Below are positions 1-28,787 of a stretch of DNA of 28,787 nt, piece by piece. Position numbers and translations under genes: made by a program. This DNA is from a virus. Below the pieces are notes generated by a model. That model did no database searches, had not been told where the DNA came from, and saw only the letters and a list, made by a program, of their open reading frames with translations. The stretch covers positions 1-28,787 of the IMG/VR virus record IMGVR_UViG_3300025266_000034; one strand, written 5' to 3'. Every line of letters starts with the position of its first letter. The first letter of the stretch is position 1.

Positions 1-127
1 ATTCGTCGTTTAACTGCATCCACGCCTGCCTGTATGCCTCGAATTTTTCGTCGTGCCAATCATAAGCTAAATAAGATAACGTACCGCTGTTATCCTGTAA
101 ACTCATTAAGTCATACTCTAAATCTTG
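1..127. repeat. Left copy of 127-bp terminal direct repeat (circular-assembly overlap)
   Basis: These 127 bases are identical to 28661..28787. The gene interrupted by the window start continues in frame across the join. A perfect overlap of exactly 127 bases is what a k-mer assembler leaves on a circular contig with k=127. The simplest reading is therefore a circularly permuted or circular genome of about 28,660 bp, not a biological terminal repeat. Confidence 0.93.
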
Positions 128-229
128 TACTAGCCCTAAAGCTACTTTATGAGGCTTAGATAAATTAATATTTGCTTCGTGTTTTTGGTTTTCAAATAAC
201 CTACTAAATACTCTGTCCTTTGTACTCAT
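1..229 (-). CDS. Internal-head-protein candidate IP3, N-terminal part (continues at 28660)
   Basis: This is the N-terminal half of a 146-residue protein whose gene crosses the circle junction; its C-terminal half is 28449..28660. The start is the ATG at 229..227. The protein opens MSTKDRVFSRLF, nearly the same peptide that opens its two upstream neighbours (MQTEKRVFSKLF) and closes the scaffold-like protein just downstream (TTKDRVFNKLFN). Residues 31-41 (LGLVQDLEYDL) match residues 27-37 of the neighbour at 247..666 (LGITQDLETAV), so these are diverged paralogs. The rest is acidic and predicted helical, with no signal peptide or membrane segment. I know no function for the family. Its place between the prohead protease and the scaffold suggests a head-associated or internal head protein. 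Confidence 0.85.
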   Translation of the reverse strand, partial: MSTKDRVFSRLFENQKHEANINLSKPHKVALGLVQDLEYDLMSLQDNSGTLSYLAYDWHDEKFEAYRQAWMQLNDE

Positions 230-246
230 TTGTATTATTTTATTAT

Positions 247-666
247 TTATATATCAAATACCAACGGGTTGTCGTTAATAAGATTTTTTAAGTTTACTGC
301 TTCGTCAATATAATTTAAAGCCTCTTGGTAGTTTCCGTTAAAATCTGTAGGTACTCCTAGCTCGTTTGCTAAATCTTGTGCCTTATCTACTAAACCCTGT
401 ACGAAATCTATGTTTTGGTTTATGGTTTCAAGTGTAGCTGCTTTATAGTCATTATAATATCGCACCTCGTCGGTTACATTTTCTAAAACATTATTTACTC
501 GCAATGCTATTTGTAAAACTTTCTCGCCTGTATTTAAAGTATTTCCAAAACTACCTACTGCCGTCTCTAAATCTTGTGTTATTCCTAATTCTGCCCTATG
601 CTTGGTAAACGTTGTTTTAGGTGTTTCATTAAACAATTTACTAAATACTCTTTTCTCTGTTTGCAT
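247..666 (-). CDS. Internal-head-protein candidate IP2 (RVFSKLF-leader paralog)
   Basis: A 139-residue protein of unknown family, opening MQTEKRVFSKLF, identical over 12 residues to the gene before it (671..1111). After this leader the sequences diverge, but LGVPTDFNGNY (residues 103-113) lines up with LGIDPREVYQGY in IP1 and LGLAANDVYDQW in IP3. Residues 27-37 also match IP3. It is helical and acidic, without cysteines or hydrophobic segments. The ATG at 666 lies 4 bases after the stop of the upstream gene, so the two are translated from one message. The conserved leader followed by a variable body resembles the layout of T4 internal proteins, which carry an N-terminal capsid-targeting peptide; that parallel is inference. 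Confidence 0.85.
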   Translation of the reverse strand: MQTEKRVFSKLFNETPKTTFTKHRAELGITQDLETAVGSFGNTLNTGEKVLQIALRVNNVLENVTDEVRYYNDYKAATLETINQNIDFVQGLVDKAQDLANELGVPTDFNGNYQEALNYIDEAVNLKNLINDNPLVFDI

Positions 667-670
667 ATTA

Positions 671-1111
671 TTACATTAAATCATTAAACCCTACGTAACT
701 AATAACCTCTCTGTACTTCTCTACATAATCTCTCTGCATACTTGCGGCGTTATCTACAAAATACTTAGCGTCGTCGTAACCTTGGTAAACCTCTCTAGGG
801 TCTATTCCTAGTTGCTCCGAAAATTGTTCTACGTCTTCTAGTAATACTCTAATTCTATCGCTAGTCTCTATTAAATTTCTAGCTGCGCCATTTACTACAA
901 AATCGTCTATATTATATTCTCTTTGGAATGACTCCCACGCACTTAAAACTTTATCGCCCATATCATACGCAAAATACGCTGCATCTTGGTACGCATCCTC
1001 TAAAACAGGAAACTCTGTGATTAATTCACTTACTACACTTAATTTTGTACTTTTATCTTTAAGTTCGTCGTCTTTAAATAGTTTACTAAAAACTCTTTTT
1101 TCTGTCTGCAT
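671..1111 (-). CDS. Internal-head-protein candidate IP1 (RVFSKLF-leader paralog)
   Basis: A 146-residue acidic, helical protein that is the first of three tandem paralogs. Its leader MQTEKRVFSKLF is shared with IP2 and, with small changes, with IP3 and the C-terminus of the scaffold-like protein. The family motif LGIDPREVYQGY is at residues 101-112. The middle is rich in aromatic and acidic residues (40s to 60s) and looks like paired helices. The ATG at 1111 lies 13 bases downstream of the two-part late-promoter motif at 1125..1152, so this gene probably begins the head transcript that runs on through scaffold and capsid. No enzymatic motif is visible. A structural minor head protein or a packaged, injected protein are both possible. 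Confidence 0.85.
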   Translation of the reverse strand: MQTEKRVFSKLFKDDELKDKSTKLSVVSELITEFPVLEDAYQDAAYFAYDMGDKVLSAWESFQREYNIDDFVVNGAARNLIETSDRIRVLLEDVEQFSEQLGIDPREVYQGYDDAKYFVDNAASMQRDYVEKYREVISYVGFNDLM

Positions 1112-1164: not shown

Positions 1165-1323
1165 TTATTTTTCTACTCTTGTTATATTTCCTATACCTTG
1201 CGCCCATAGAGTACCGTCGCAACACTCTATAGAATAAGTATTTTTATCTTTACATAAACACGCTCTATTACCACCTACAGGGGACGCATTAGACGGTACA
1301 CCTTTTTGTCTATTAATTGCCAT
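1165..1323 (-). CDS. Small Cys-containing phage protein (52 aa)
   Basis: A 52-residue protein starting at the ATG at 1323, inside the last codons of the protease gene (11-base overlap). It has four cysteines in the pattern ACLC-N11-CC and a conserved-looking end, DGTLWAQGIGNIT. I recognise this as a common small protein near structural genes of Bacteroidota phages, but its function is unknown to me. The paired cysteines could bind a metal or form disulfides in a virion protein. The overlap with the protease indicates translational coupling. It is followed by 53 non-coding bases that hold the head-operon promoter motif. Confidence 0.75.
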   Translation of the reverse strand: MAINRQKGVPSNASPVGGNRACLCKDKNTYSIECCDGTLWAQGIGNITRVEK

Positions 1324-1921
1324 TTTCTATTTTTTTAAGTCTGTTTAATAATAATCCTAAACTTTCGTTTATTTCTTTATTTAAGTTAGCGTCTTTAGCT
1401 TTTGCTAGTGCCTTTTCTTCAAAAAATCCCTCTATAGAGAACCCTTTTATTGACCCGTCTACTTTCGCCATTTTCCAAAGCTCCTCGTTTTCTACTTTTA
1501 CAGCCCCGACCCACGTACCAATAGGTAGGTCTAAATTATATAATGCGCTCTTGTCATTTATTTTGTCTTCGACTATCCACGATTCTACTAAGCTAACATT
1601 TTGCACCTCTTGTATATGCTCGTATGTCGCATTATTTGCGTGTCCGTTTTTTAAATATAGTTCGCTCGCTTGTTTTACTGTAGACTTTGTAAAGTGTATG
1701 TAGTACTCGTCTTTACCGTCTCGTCTATAAATCATTCTATTAGGTACTAAAAGTGCGCCTATTAAAATCTTTTTATCTTCGTCTATTGCTTTAAACTTAT
1801 ATTCTTTTTCGTTTTTAAGTGCTACCCAATTTTCGCTAATTGCGGGCGACTCTACTAAACTTATAGCGTCTACCCCCGAATACTCGTCCGTTTCGTCTAT
1901 TATTAATTCTACTATTCTCAT
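1313..1921 (-). CDS. Prohead maturation protease, XkdF-like (peptidase S78_2 type)
   Basis: A 202-residue protein matching the XkdF-like serine protease family that processes capsid and scaffold during head maturation. Visible features are the strand region ILIGALLVPNRMIYRRDG (residues 52-69), then YIHFTKSTVKQASELYLKNGH (74-94), the His-containing TYEH with H102, and NVSLVESWIVED with candidate nucleophile S114 or S110. GTWVGAVKV and GFSIEGFF follow. The C-terminal tail is lysine-rich. It starts at the ATG at 1921, only 3 bases after a late-promoter-like motif. It precedes the three RVFSKLF proteins and the scaffold-like protein, which are its likely substrates or co-assembly partners. The family assignment is strong; the exact catalytic triad is inferred. 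Confidence 0.85.
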   Translation of the reverse strand: MRIVELIIDETDEYSGVDAISLVESPAISENWVALKNEKEYKFKAIDEDKKILIGALLVPNRMIYRRDGKDEYYIHFTKSTVKQASELYLKNGHANNATYEHIQEVQNVSLVESWIVEDKINDKSALYNLDLPIGTWVGAVKVENEELWKMAKVDGSIKGFSIEGFFEEKALAKAKDANLNKEINESLGLLLNRLKKIENGN

Positions 1922-23707: not shown

Positions 23708-25669
23708 TTATCTGTCGTATTTCCAATAATCGTTTTGTGCTTCTGCTATTTGTGCTACTTCTCTAGGATTTGCTACTATTCTAGCCTCGTCTCTCATATT
23801 AGGGTCAATAGCTATAATTAAACGTCGTGCTTCGTTTACTGTTATTCTTTTATTATTTTTTCTTAAATATGTTCGTCTCTCAAAAAAATGTTGGCAATTA
23901 ACACCGCCTTTATAAAGAAAAATATTATAGTTATCTGCGCCTCGTATTCCTAGACCCTCGTTTACATTCTGTGCGTTTCCGTTATAGTTTGGGTTGTCGC
24001 TATCTAGGTCTTCTACTCTGTAAACCCTTGACGCCGAAACCATATCTCTACAAAATTCTCTTTCGGGTGCTTGCGACCCTGCGTAAACATATCGTACTTT
24101 AATAATAGTTGTATCTTGGTCGCTACTTTTATTAGGTGTACTACGTACTGCGCTAGCAAAATTAAAGGTATTATGTAATTGTTTATCGTATTCGTTTGAC
24201 GGTCTAGCGTCTATAAGTTCCCAATTTTCTAAATCTTCGTCTTCGCCTACTTCTGCTAGTCTTTTTAATAAAGCCCCTTTTATCTCTTCTGTTAATTCGG
24301 GTGCTTTTTTATCTAGGTCTGTGTGATTTTGGCAAGGCATAAACCATTTTCTACCGTCTTCGTCTATCATTTCGTGGTAGCCCATACAGCCCAATTCATT
24401 AGCTTTGTCTTCTGCCTGCTGTATAGACTCGTAGGCTTGTTTGCCGTCAATTACTTTTAGCTGTGTTTTAAAGTCTTGCTTTTGTCCTGTTTGCTCCTCT
24501 ATCTCTTCTATAGTATTTGCGTTTTCTAAATCTATAAATTCTAAAGGTTGTAAAGTCTTTATATATAAATTTAAACTAATATCATTATAGGCAAGTATTT
24601 CATCAAAACCTCGTAAGATTAAATCTTGAAATGGTCTAACAATAGAGTTGTCATAAAGTATAGAGGCGTTTTTTAATTCATCTGCATTTGAACCTAGACC
24701 CGATTCTTTATTAATTCCTAGTAATAACGGGCTTGTAATTCTGTGCGAAATTATTATTTTTTGGCTGCTCTCTGTACTTAAAAATTGGTACTGTTGGTGT
24801 GCGTCTGAAAGTTGTATAGTTTCTACGCTTGCCGCCTCTTCTGCTGAATTATTAAAAGCTAAAATAAAACGTCCACTATTTGACGTACCTACATATTTTT
24901 GGTAAATTTTGTTTTCTATTTCCCTCTGTGTATCTTCGTCGGGTACACCACTATTCATATTTAAAAGTAGCGACGGATTCATACCGTTTTTTAACGAGTT
25001 TAAATGAAAATTACTTATTTCCGCTTCCATTTCTATATACTGTGTACCCCCTTGGTAGTCTACAGGGCTGTAGTAGTAATAGCCCGACTTATACGGCTTT
25101 ATAAATAACATTTCCATATCTTCATTAGAAAATCCAAAAGCGGGTATTCTTTTTATGTCGTCCGACGTTCTTACGTCCGTCCAATCTGCGGCGTAGTAAT
25201 ATCCTGTAATATCGCCGTCTTCATTTGCACGCTCTGCCCTTAAAGTTTCTACGGGGTAGTGTTCTACTTGTACTATCTTACTCCTGTCTTCGTTGTAGAT
25301 AACTTGCATAGAGCATCCACCAAATAGTTTTAAATCTATAGCTAAACGGCTTAGTGTTTCGTCTTTAAATAATTTACGCATTACGGCGTAGTCATTAGGT
25401 TTTTTACTACTATCTGTAGCATCTAAACCACGCCCCGCTATAAGTTGTGCTGTACCGTTTATAGCTGCTGAATTTGTAGGGCTACCATTAAATAAATCTA
25501 GCAAGTAACCGTAGTAATCGTTATCTGCCCCGTATTTTACAAACTCTTGGTTTTGCTCCTCGCTTATAAGTGGGCTAGTATATGTACCTAGGTTTACAAA
25601 CTTTAAACTAGATTTGTTTTTAGTAGGTACTGCCGCCTTTTGATTATATTTTTTTAGCTGTTTTTTCAT
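23708..25669 (-). CDS. Portal protein with C-terminal MuF-like minor head domain
   Basis: A 653-residue protein. Residues about 1-390 are a portal of the PBSX/HK97-like type: helical clip and wing segments, DLKLFGGCSMQVIYNED, FISP-like GFSNEDMEMLFIKPYKSGYY, then SHRITSPLLLGINKESGLGS and a stem helix before LNLYIKTLQPLEF. After a linker with HTDLDKKAPELTEEIKG, the C-terminal part (about 527-600) contains YVYAGSQAPEREFCRDMVSA and GGVNCQHFFERRTY. The latter is the C-x-H signature of MuF/SPP1 gp7-type minor head proteins. In most phages these are separate genes, so this looks like a fusion. Portal forms the DNA gate; MuF domains are packaged in few copies. The ATG overlaps the upstream stop as ATGA. 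Confidence 0.8.
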   Translation of the reverse strand: MKKQLKKYNQKAAVPTKNKSSLKFVNLGTYTSPLISEEQNQEFVKYGADNDYYGYLLDLFNGSPTNSAAINGTAQLIAGRGLDATDSSKKPNDYAVMRKLFKDETLSRLAIDLKLFGGCSMQVIYNEDRSKIVQVEHYPVETLRAERANEDGDITGYYYAADWTDVRTSDDIKRIPAFGFSNEDMEMLFIKPYKSGYYYYSPVDYQGGTQYIEMEAEISNFHLNSLKNGMNPSLLLNMNSGVPDEDTQREIENKIYQKYVGTSNSGRFILAFNNSAEEAASVETIQLSDAHQQYQFLSTESSQKIIISHRITSPLLLGINKESGLGSNADELKNASILYDNSIVRPFQDLILRGFDEILAYNDISLNLYIKTLQPLEFIDLENANTIEEIEEQTGQKQDFKTQLKVIDGKQAYESIQQAEDKANELGCMGYHEMIDEDGRKWFMPCQNHTDLDKKAPELTEEIKGALLKRLAEVGEDEDLENWELIDARPSNEYDKQLHNTFNFASAVRSTPNKSSDQDTTIIKVRYVYAGSQAPEREFCRDMVSASRVYRVEDLDSDNPNYNGNAQNVNEGLGIRGADNYNIFLYKGGVNCQHFFERRTYLRKNNKRITVNEARRLIIAIDPNMRDEARIVANPREVAQIAEAQNDYWKYDR

Positions 25670-26798: not shown

Positions 26799-27770
26799 TT
26801 ATGCTAGAGTGTATAAAACTACGTCCTCTGTTACACCGATTTGTACTCCACTTTGGAAACGTAAAACGATTCTTACATTATCGCTACCGTCTACGTCGGA
26901 TAAATCTAAAATTTTCGCAACATTAGAGTCTGCCATTAAAGCTGTACCATAAAAAAGATTACTCTTTTCTGCTGCTAAAATTGACGTTGCGGGCATTCCT
27001 GGGGCTTTAAAGACTTTTACGCCCTCAAATGTTAAACCGCCATTCTCATACCACATAGACCCCTGTTGGTCTACACCGCCACCACCTACAGCACCAAATC
27101 CACCTAAAGCTCTTACGTATGCCTTAAATGCTACCGTTGGTAAATATAAATGTAAATCTTCTTTACCATATACTTCGGGCTTAATTGCGTCTACAATTTT
27201 TCCTAATTCTGCTACGATTGTCGTAGAGTCAAAACTTGTTGCTGTTGTAACTACGTCTACTACTCCTGCCTCTGTTAAAGCTAAAGTAATTAAACCGTTA
27301 AACTCTCCTGCTAAAGCTGCATTACCACTCCAAATATTATTCTCTGTAGACTCTGCTACTTTGGCTACTACGTGCGCCATTAAATAATCTGCAAATGATG
27401 TAGGTAAATTTTTATAAGCACTAGCTCCCATTTCTAAAGCTAAATAATCTGTTAAAAAATCTTTCTTACAAATTTGTAAATTTACTTGGAAAGGCTCTAC
27501 TTCTAAAACTCTTTGTGATAAATTGATTTGGTCTGCTGTTACTGTAAAGTCGCAAGTTGCATCCGTTACCAATCCTGTACTAGATAATTTTTTTACGATT
27601 TCTTTGTACGCCACGTTTGGCTTAATTGTAATACCGCCTTTGTCTAAAGTGTCTCCACTTAATAACGCTGCCGAAATTATTTCGCCTAGGTACTGTCCCT
27701 CATAAGTTGTAGTAATTGTTCCTACCGAACCACTACCCGTAATGTCTCTTAATTGTGTTCTTTTTTTCAT
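26799..27770 (-). CDS. Major capsid protein (HK97-fold type)
   Basis: A 323-residue protein starting MKKRTQLRDITGSGSVGTIT. Typical features are an N-terminal arm and E-loop region, a spine helix area FADYLMAHVVAKVAESTENN (about residues 126-145) with IWSGNAALAGEFNGLITLAL, the P-domain strand DLHLYLPTVAFKAYVRALGG, and the A-domain end DNVRIVLRFQSGVQIGVTED. It follows the scaffold-like gene by 17 bases. There is no long N-terminal delta domain, which fits a separate scaffold protein. It is preceded by no own promoter motif, so it is likely made from the 1125 promoter. Confidence 0.85.
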   Translation of the reverse strand: MKKRTQLRDITGSGSVGTITTTYEGQYLGEIISAALLSGDTLDKGGITIKPNVAYKEIVKKLSSTGLVTDATCDFTVTADQINLSQRVLEVEPFQVNLQICKKDFLTDYLALEMGASAYKNLPTSFADYLMAHVVAKVAESTENNIWSGNAALAGEFNGLITLALTEAGVVDVVTTATSFDSTTIVAELGKIVDAIKPEVYGKEDLHLYLPTVAFKAYVRALGGFGAVGGGGVDQQGSMWYENGGLTFEGVKVFKAPGMPATSILAAEKSNLFYGTALMADSNVAKILDLSDVDGSDNVRIVLRFQSGVQIGVTEDVVLYTLA

Positions 27771-27787: not shown

Positions 27788-28429
27788 CTAATTAAATAAT
27801 TTGTTAAATACTCTGTCTTTTGTTGTGTGTGTTCCTGCGTTTTGACTATAAAGCGTTTGTGCTGCTTTTCTAGTACTTGTTTCGGGGTTGTGCTTCATTG
27901 GTTTACGGGCGGGCTTTTGCTTACTCATTTTTTGCCTCTCGTCTTCCTTTTCGTCGTCGATTCCGTCTCTATATCCCTCCTCTTCGGCTTGGGGTATAGT
28001 TTCCATATATTTTTTTAACTCTTCTTTTACTTCTGTAATCATTGGTGCAATTACCTCTACTACTGCGTCTACTATTGCAGCTATTTCGTCTACCGCTACT
28101 TCGGGTACGTCCTCTACTACTACCTCGTCTAACTCCTCTTCTTTAATCTTTTTACCGTCTTGCGCCATTTTTTCCTCTTCCATATCGTCTCTCATTTCTG
28201 CTATAGTACCCTCTTCGGTAACTATAATCATACCGCCGTTTTCATTTATTCGGTATTCGCCAATAGGTAGTGCGATTCGTTCGTCGTCTGAAACGATAAA
28301 GATAGCTTCGCCCTCTCTAAAGTTATCCGATTCGATAATTGTTTCGCCGTCTTCTAAGGTCATTTGAGCTAGACCCAATCTTGACTTTAGCATAGTTTTA
28401 ATTTGCTTTAACATTTCTGTTGTCTTCAT
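27788..28429 (-). CDS. Scaffold-like head protein with C-terminal RVFNKLF tag
   Basis: A 213-residue protein. The N-terminal part (about 1-75) is a small beta domain (ESDNFREGEAIFIVSDDERI, PIGEYRINENGGMIIVTEEG). An acidic, low-complexity helical part follows (about 78-140, EEEELDEVVVEDVPEVAVDE-type, split). The C-terminal third is very basic (KQKPARKPMKHNPETSTRK). It closes with TTKDRVFNKLFN (residues 202-213). The charge pattern and the position directly before the capsid gene fit a scaffold, whose C-terminal helix usually binds capsid. The same closing peptide opens three neighbouring proteins, so it is probably a docking or targeting signal rather than a chance match. Cleavage by the XkdF-like protease is likely. 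Confidence 0.72.
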   Translation of the reverse strand: MKTTEMLKQIKTMLKSRLGLAQMTLEDGETIIESDNFREGEAIFIVSDDERIALPIGEYRINENGGMIIVTEEGTIAEMRDDMEEEKMAQDGKKIKEEELDEVVVEDVPEVAVDEIAAIVDAVVEVIAPMITEVKEELKKYMETIPQAEEEGYRDGIDDEKEDERQKMSKQKPARKPMKHNPETSTRKAAQTLYSQNAGTHTTKDRVFNKLFN

Positions 28430-28448: not shown

Positions 28449-28787
28449 TTAATTCCAATCTCTAAATTCCTGTTCGTTTCGCATATACTGTAAGTCCGCT
28501 TCTCTCATATTTTCAAGCTCCGAATAGTGTTCGTCCCATTGGTCGTAAACGTCGTTTGCTGCTAAACCTAGTTCGTCTGCTTTTACTCTAATCTCTTCTA
28601 AAATACCTAAATCTCTCTCTACGTCCTCGTATCTTAAAACTGCGCTACCGTTGTGTGTGTATTCGTCGTTTAACTGCATCCACGCCTGCCTGTATGCCTC
28701 GAATTTTTCGTCGTGCCAATCATAAGCTAAATAAGATAACGTACCGCTGTTATCCTGTAAACTCATTAAGTCATACTCTAAATCTTG
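28449..28787 (-). CDS. Internal-head-protein candidate IP3, C-terminal part (continues at 1)
   Basis: This is the C-terminal part of the 146-residue protein whose ATG is at 229 in the left copy; bases 28661..28787 repeat 1..127. The family motif LGLAANDVYDQWDEHY lies about residues 107-122, matching LG...Y blocks of IP1 and IP2. The end, RNEQEFRDWN, is acidic. An internal ATG at 28766 (MSLQDNSG) could be mistaken for the start, but joining the ends shows the true N-terminus with the RVFSRLF leader. The scaffold-like gene starts 19 bases after the stop. Confidence 0.85.
   Translation of the reverse strand, partial: QDLEYDLMSLQDNSGTLSYLAYDWHDEKFEAYRQAWMQLNDEYTHNGSAVLRYEDVERDLGILEEIRVKADELGLAANDVYDQWDEHYSELENMREADLQYMRNEQEFRDWN
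28661..28787. repeat. Right copy of 127-bp terminal direct repeat (circular-assembly overlap)
   Basis: Identical to 1..127. Joining 28660 to 1 restores one uninterrupted 146-residue gene, supporting a circular contig of 28,660 unique bases. Confidence 0.93.

Follow-up and report, generated by a model that had tools for sequence, protein, structure and literature searches.

The closest precedents for what we describe here come from phages 80alpha and T4. In 80alpha the scaffold and CpmB, a small helical protein of SaPI1, have the same RIIK helix-and-hook end and use the same capsid site, as established by structure and mutants (PMC5644958). In T4, variable small proteins are packed via a constant N-terminal targeting sequence and injected, and block GmrSD restriction enzymes (PMC12373910, PMC3012670). 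The scaffold of P22, gp8, docks on the capsid protein through a C-terminal helix-turn-helix, and in a laboratory design cargo fused to truncated scaffold loads into the procapsid (PMC12005531, PMC9962691). The major capsid protein of herpesviruses likewise binds its scaffold by the C-terminal 25 residues of the latter. Encapsulins have no scaffold, and their cargo-loading peptides are usually C-terminal. A capsid-binding peptide shared by a scaffold and a second protein, and head proteins with a constant tag and variable bodies, are therefore each known singly.

The window, that is the whole stretch of 28,787 nucleotides analysed here (IMG/VR record IMGVR_UViG_3300025266_000034), is a complete circular phage genome of 28.7 kb with an exact 127-bp end repeat (28661-28787 = 1-127). 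The phage belongs to a group of uncultured marine phages, apparently of Flavobacteriia, from which related phages come. On its minus strand the genes run from an S78_2 protease through a 52-aa Cys-rich protein, the small proteins IP1, IP2 and IP3 and the scaffold to the capsid protein; 3' of the capsid gene lie two small head genes and then the portal gene. The features concerned are as follows.

1313..1921, minus strand: prohead protease (Peptidase_S78_2, XkdF-like), 202 aa; Pfam PF14550 at E 5.4e-14, N-half of phrog_24921 at E 3.6e-46
1165..1323, minus strand: Cys-rich conserved protein, 52 aa, between protease and IP1; homologues in most related loci
671..1111, minus strand: IP1, 146 aa, predicted all-helical
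1111..1076, minus strand: N-terminal tag of IP1, MQTEKRVFSKLF, from the motif scan
247..666, minus strand: IP2, 139 aa; phage L005, near-identical to this one, has another body
666..631, minus strand: N-terminal tag of IP2, MQTEKRVFSKLF, from the motif scan
1..229, minus strand: 5' part of IP3; the gene continues from 28787 downwards
28449..28787, minus strand: 3' part of IP3; 28661-28787 repeats 1-127
229..194, minus strand: N-terminal tag of IP3, MSTKDRVFSRLF, from the motif scan
27788..28429, minus strand: scaffold, 213 aa, encoded immediately before the capsid protein; scaffolds of relatives match the C-half of phrog_24921
27826..27791, minus strand: C-terminal tag of the scaffold, TTKDRVFNKLFN, followed by the stop; from the motif scan and end scoring
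26799..27770, minus strand: major capsid protein, 323 aa, HK97-fold by AlphaFold2 model; phrog_11320
23708..25669, minus strand: portal protein, phrog_33693 at E 3.6e-116

Since the genome is circular with a 127-bp end repeat, IP3 spans the ends of the window and has a full length of 146 aa. The product of 1313-1921 passes the Pfam gathering score for Peptidase_S78_2 (52.7 bits against a cut-off of 24), and the PF14550 match bears out an earlier sequence-only reading of this DNA, in which the adjacent protease had been called XkdF-like. Homologues of the Cys-rich protein (1165-1323, minus strand; GGNRACLCKD..YS..CCDGTLWAQGIGNIT) stand in the same place in loci with or without IPs. The AlphaFold2 model of the capsid protein, of modest confidence (pLDDT 67), matched HK97-fold capsids and encapsulins in the PDB (best E 1e-9, probability 1.00); the capsid profile gave nothing useful against PDB sequences. 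The match recalls encapsulin cargo loading, in which a short peptide on the cargo docks inside an HK97-fold shell. At its C-terminal end the portal protein is extended by a long stretch that matches DUF3721 (E 1.3e-9).

The scaffold consists of an N-terminal helix, a small beta domain, an acidic helical middle and a basic C-terminal end; its net charge is -20, and the 52 residues at the C-terminus carry +7. Scaffolds of related phages match positions 205-338 of phrog_24921, the N-half of which is an S78_2 protease, and a full-length member of that family, P12024L_01 of Nonlabens phage P12024L, is a single protein with an S78_2 protease followed by scaffold, comparable with lambda C/Nu3 and herpes UL26/UL26.5. 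In the record of that phage the fusion (179-1228) is annotated merely as hypothetical. Protease and scaffold are fused in P12024L and separate here, and the P12024L head region is without IP genes; the C-terminal end of P12024L_01, LTLAERLENLNK, resembles the same kind of helix. Homology to the C-half of this fusion and the position directly upstream of an HK97-fold capsid gene uphold the earlier description of the protein as scaffold-like: flanked by protease and IP genes and by the capsid gene, the product of 27788-28429 would be an internal scaffold. Another scaffold (L106:3171-3851), though in other respects only distantly similar, contains the acidic segment IPQAEEEGYRDGIDDEKEDER in nearly identical form, which suggests an exchanged module. 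Some 110 loci keep the end of the scaffold in the form (S/T)Tx(D/N)RV(F/M)xx(L/I); these include genomes without IPs, so that the primary role of this end lies with the scaffold itself.

The genome has four copies of the motif RVFx[K/R]LF, at the C-terminal end of the scaffold and at the N-terminal ends of IP1, IP2 and IP3, and a six-frame scan of the circular genome found the wider pattern R[VIL]Fx[KR][LIVM]F at those four places only. All four peptides lie exactly where they had previously been reported. When the N- and C-terminal ends of all ORFs of at least 50 aa were scored against the scaffold end, the four tags scored 52, 44, 36 and 36 and the next ORF 16. The 41 distinct RVF-tagged IPs of related loci all have V2, F3 and F7, and the tag codons show more synonymous than non-synonymous change (pS 0.47, pN 0.145), indicating that the peptide and not the DNA is conserved. 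A tag that stays constant while bodies are exchanged is what would be expected of a targeting signal.

The bodies themselves had been taken to differ widely. A search with IP1 recovers both IP3 (E 2.9e-6) and IP2 (E 1.7e-4), and IP1-3 are instead diverged paralogues in one acidic, helical, hypervariable family of 115-170 aa. Iterated profile searches yielded 164 distinct members. Their median pI is 4.5; the first 20 residues are basic, with a charge of +3, and the body behind them is acidic, at -16. An acidic body with a basic tag end is thus a design common to scaffold and IPs. Behind the tag follows a K-x-V-x-L junction (115 of the 164 members) and further along an LG(I/V/L) motif (155 of 164). 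The model of IP1 is all-helical (mean pLDDT 85.9), its tag helix being the least certain part (pLDDT 56-61). IP1-3 had no match in PHROGs, and Pfam and PADLOC gave only scattered weak matches to the family and no known defence or anti-defence family. The family profile found only generic helical proteins and coiled coils in the PDB, and when the IP1 model was compared by fold with viral models, nothing reached E<=0.001. Searches of cultured phage records returned no relative of the IPs or the scaffold, and three IPs had no match in cultured phages, T-evens included, leaving us without a cultured IP carrier. Sequence homology to the T4 internal proteins was accordingly not found in PHROGs, Pfam or these phages. 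A pattern search built on one IP alignment (A1) was dropped, as the alignment was too variable. In three loci (L182:214-792, L186:1285-1857, L195:2738-3247) IP-family bodies are fused to a Cys-rich N-terminal end (MPCKKCKDGNYKYGNTGECKYA) with no helical tag.

Searching IMG/VR with the capsid protein, the scaffold and one IP returned several hundred loci. Lineages defined by single linkage of scaffold ends merged nearly all of these and left no power, and the analysis was redone with capsid-protein clusters. The clade of the source phage (clade A) spans capsid identities of 68-100% and falls into two clusters at the 75% level. Here the C-terminus of the scaffold reads RVFxK(L/I/M)F, and just upstream are genes for two or three small proteins with the start MxTxxRVFx(K/R)(L/M)F; every clade A locus with both ends readable has the tag in both contexts. 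Across 11 capsid clusters at 75%, scaffold ends and IP starts are more alike in own-lineage than in cross-lineage pairs (P 0.0005), a signal driven by clade A (P = 0.054 without it). Looser matches of their own occur in lineage D (scaffold ...LDRVLNKLNK; IPs ...LEKVLDKMPNK and ...IEKVYGKLPK; combined shuffle p 3e-5) and lineage C (scaffold ...LDRVMAKI; IPs ...RRVFEKLS and ...NRVFAKLS; combined shuffle p 7e-4), both p values being optimistic because tags within a lineage are not independent. Lineage E retains RVF-type IP tags, yet its scaffolds end in DRVLRQLNK. By shuffling, the own-lineage match was not significant in about seven lineages (E, L142, F, L206, L022, L187 and L182). Exact sharing of the tag is confined to two neighbouring capsid lineages, with looser sharing in two more and none detectable elsewhere. 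The expectation that the peptide is kept in both contexts among relatives thus holds exactly in two capsid lineages and loosely in C and D, and fails in E and others. The sequence-only reading had counted homologous phages without such conservation as evidence against itself, and, sharing being limited to some lineages, that evidence is partly present.

Some starts differ from the scaffold end altogether. In most clade A2 phages the slot-3 gene begins MNTNKTVLSI..., a start that has no likeness to the end of the scaffold (shuffle p 0.50). These same bodies are found behind RVF tags as well, which suggests, without proof, that the two kinds of start are interchangeable. As copies of the scaffold end, neither this start nor the lineage C starts MSWRKIEKVW... 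and MKKGVQKLW... were significant by shuffling. Lineage C (L099-L120) also has two more IP-family genes between the scaffold and capsid genes, with constant starts of their own (MSWRKIEKVWDEVR... and MKKGVQKLWAEL...) and variable bodies.

Comparison of close relatives places the tag as a unit that is exchanged separately from the body. Phage L005 is 97-98% identical to the source phage over 7.2 kb, and the one replaced segment in that stretch is the body of IP2, beginning directly after the tag. A chimaeric gene in another phage (L079_2768) combines a tag that is 98.7% identical to that of the L095 slot-2 gene with a body that shares 90.5% identity with that of the L095 slot-3 gene, the N-terminal end of which is different; L086_675 is a second tag/body chimaera. 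Adjacent genes of L139 (lineage D) have an identical 25-aa start and different bodies. Replacement of bodies behind a constant tag and recombination between tag and body show the tag to be a real module, and a constant N-terminal tag on variable bodies is what characterizes the T4 internal proteins. The IP genes are present in 67 of 147 loci having enough upstream sequence. Within a single capsid lineage (capsid at least 75% identical), 17 of 41 loci have one to three IPs and 24 have none, so the genes are accessory; this presence and absence speaks for optional cargo and against a part that assembly cannot do without. Many IP-less phages (L026-L058, clade B) have in the IP position a protein of ~157 aa starting MADKKISQLT, which coexists with IPs in L132/L133 and is possibly another head accessory.

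The sequence-only reading knew of no described system with the same tag at the C-terminal end of a scaffold and the N-terminal end of cargo. A peptide shared between a scaffold and a second protein is nevertheless known from 80alpha and CpmB, where both copies are C-terminal (PMC5644958). In both systems two different proteins, one of them small and helical, have the same short amphipathic basic peptide, and by sequence and prediction the IPs resemble CpmB in being small, helical and tagged with the peptide of the scaffold end. The IP peptide is N-terminal, however, and sits on up to three swappable proteins encoded by the phage, whereas CpmB is a satellite protein that redirects capsid size. 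With the T-even internal proteins the locus has in common several small accessory genes, a constant N-terminal tag, highly variable bodies and a prohead protease (PMC12373910, PMC3012670, PMC5694885). The T4 proteins share only their tag, whereas the bodies here form one acidic helical family; the tag here is also the C-terminal end of the scaffold, and the T4 targeting sequence is not so described (PMC12373910, PMC3012670, PMC5694885). The T4 proteins are packaged and injected; for the IPs here both steps would be predictions. The P22 cargo fusion is laboratory-made; its equivalent here would be natural and at the N-terminal end of the cargo. We found no description of this combination, of the N-terminal placement or of natural shuffling in the open-access full-text literature.

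We propose that the scaffold attaches to the inner face of the HK97-fold capsid protein through its basic, amphipathic C-terminal helix, that the near-identical N-terminal peptide of IP1-3 would bind the same site, and that the IPs would thereby co-assemble into the prohead beside the scaffold. In the 80alpha structure one end peptide serves two different helical proteins for docking on the capsid protein, and by this analogy the tag is probably a procapsid-docking address that copies the capsid-binding helix of the scaffold and by which variable accessory proteins enter the procapsid. Gene neighbourhood, peptide identity, conservation at the protein level, body exchange, chimaeras and presence/absence make the IPs most likely accessory head cargo. 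The earlier proposal of a capsid-docking or cargo-loading signal is accordingly favoured by the neighbouring genes, the constant tag on exchanged bodies and the dispensability of the IPs, and weakened by exact sharing in only two capsid lineages. Against cargo also stands the acidity of the IP bodies; packaged internal proteins that contact DNA are often basic. As likewise proposed earlier, the S78_2 protease may cut the tag; our evidence favours neither outcome.

The acidic, all-helical IPs with a basic, predicted capsid-binding end have the design of the scaffold itself, and the small helical CpmB too has the capsid-binding end of a scaffold. The IPs might thus be auxiliary or competing scaffolds, the tag binding the capsid protein and acting in assembly only (on curvature, size or fidelity), after which they would leave or be degraded, with no injection, like SaPI1 CpmB or P4 Sid. 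We consider this rather unlikely, given that 24 of the 41 loci with capsids at least 75% identical are without IPs and that wholesale body replacement between near-identical phages would be odd for parts fitting a fixed shell. Docking on another partner of scaffold and IPs, such as the prohead protease or the portal, with the tag marking proteins for cleavage, would make sense of the S78_2 protease encoded two genes upstream of IP1 and of the K-x-V-x-L junction after the tag (115/164). The scaffold tag is nevertheless at the extreme C-terminal end, with nothing behind it to release, and the protease is split from or fused to the scaffold among these phages while the logic of the C-terminal end is unchanged, which leaves this explanation improbable.

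Exact matching in clade A only, a lineage E in which IPs have RVF-type tags but the scaffold does not end in RVF, and swap breakpoints at the edge of the tag could also reflect an accident of local DNA exchange, by which one of two neighbouring ends, IP start or scaffold end, was copied onto the other. The tag would then have no common binding partner and serve mainly as a homology block for cassette swaps. Within a single genome, however, the tags show synonymous differences from each other, and selection acts on the protein; the peptide is moreover kept at both places down to about 68% capsid identity, and lineages C and D have looser matches of their own, all of which makes such an accident very improbable.

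The likeliest use of the IPs, in the way of the T4 internal proteins, would be co-injection to counter host defences, a tentative extension by analogy that we hold to be possible and short of an even chance. The full picture, a natural cargo system in which a copy of the scaffold helix sits on exchangeable acidic proteins that are injected as a changing anti-host repertoire and reshuffled at the edge of the tag, is somewhat more doubtful. If the tag docks cargo on the site of the scaffold, this would allow a small phage to change its packaged proteins with the capsid unchanged, and would be a natural counterpart to the scaffold-fusion loading of P22 particles. It would also provide a short sequence motif by which head cargo could be recognized in viruses that have not been cultured. 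The injected proteins of marine phages are little known, and the cassette arrays would then amount to a catalogue of candidate counter-defence proteins in these phages.
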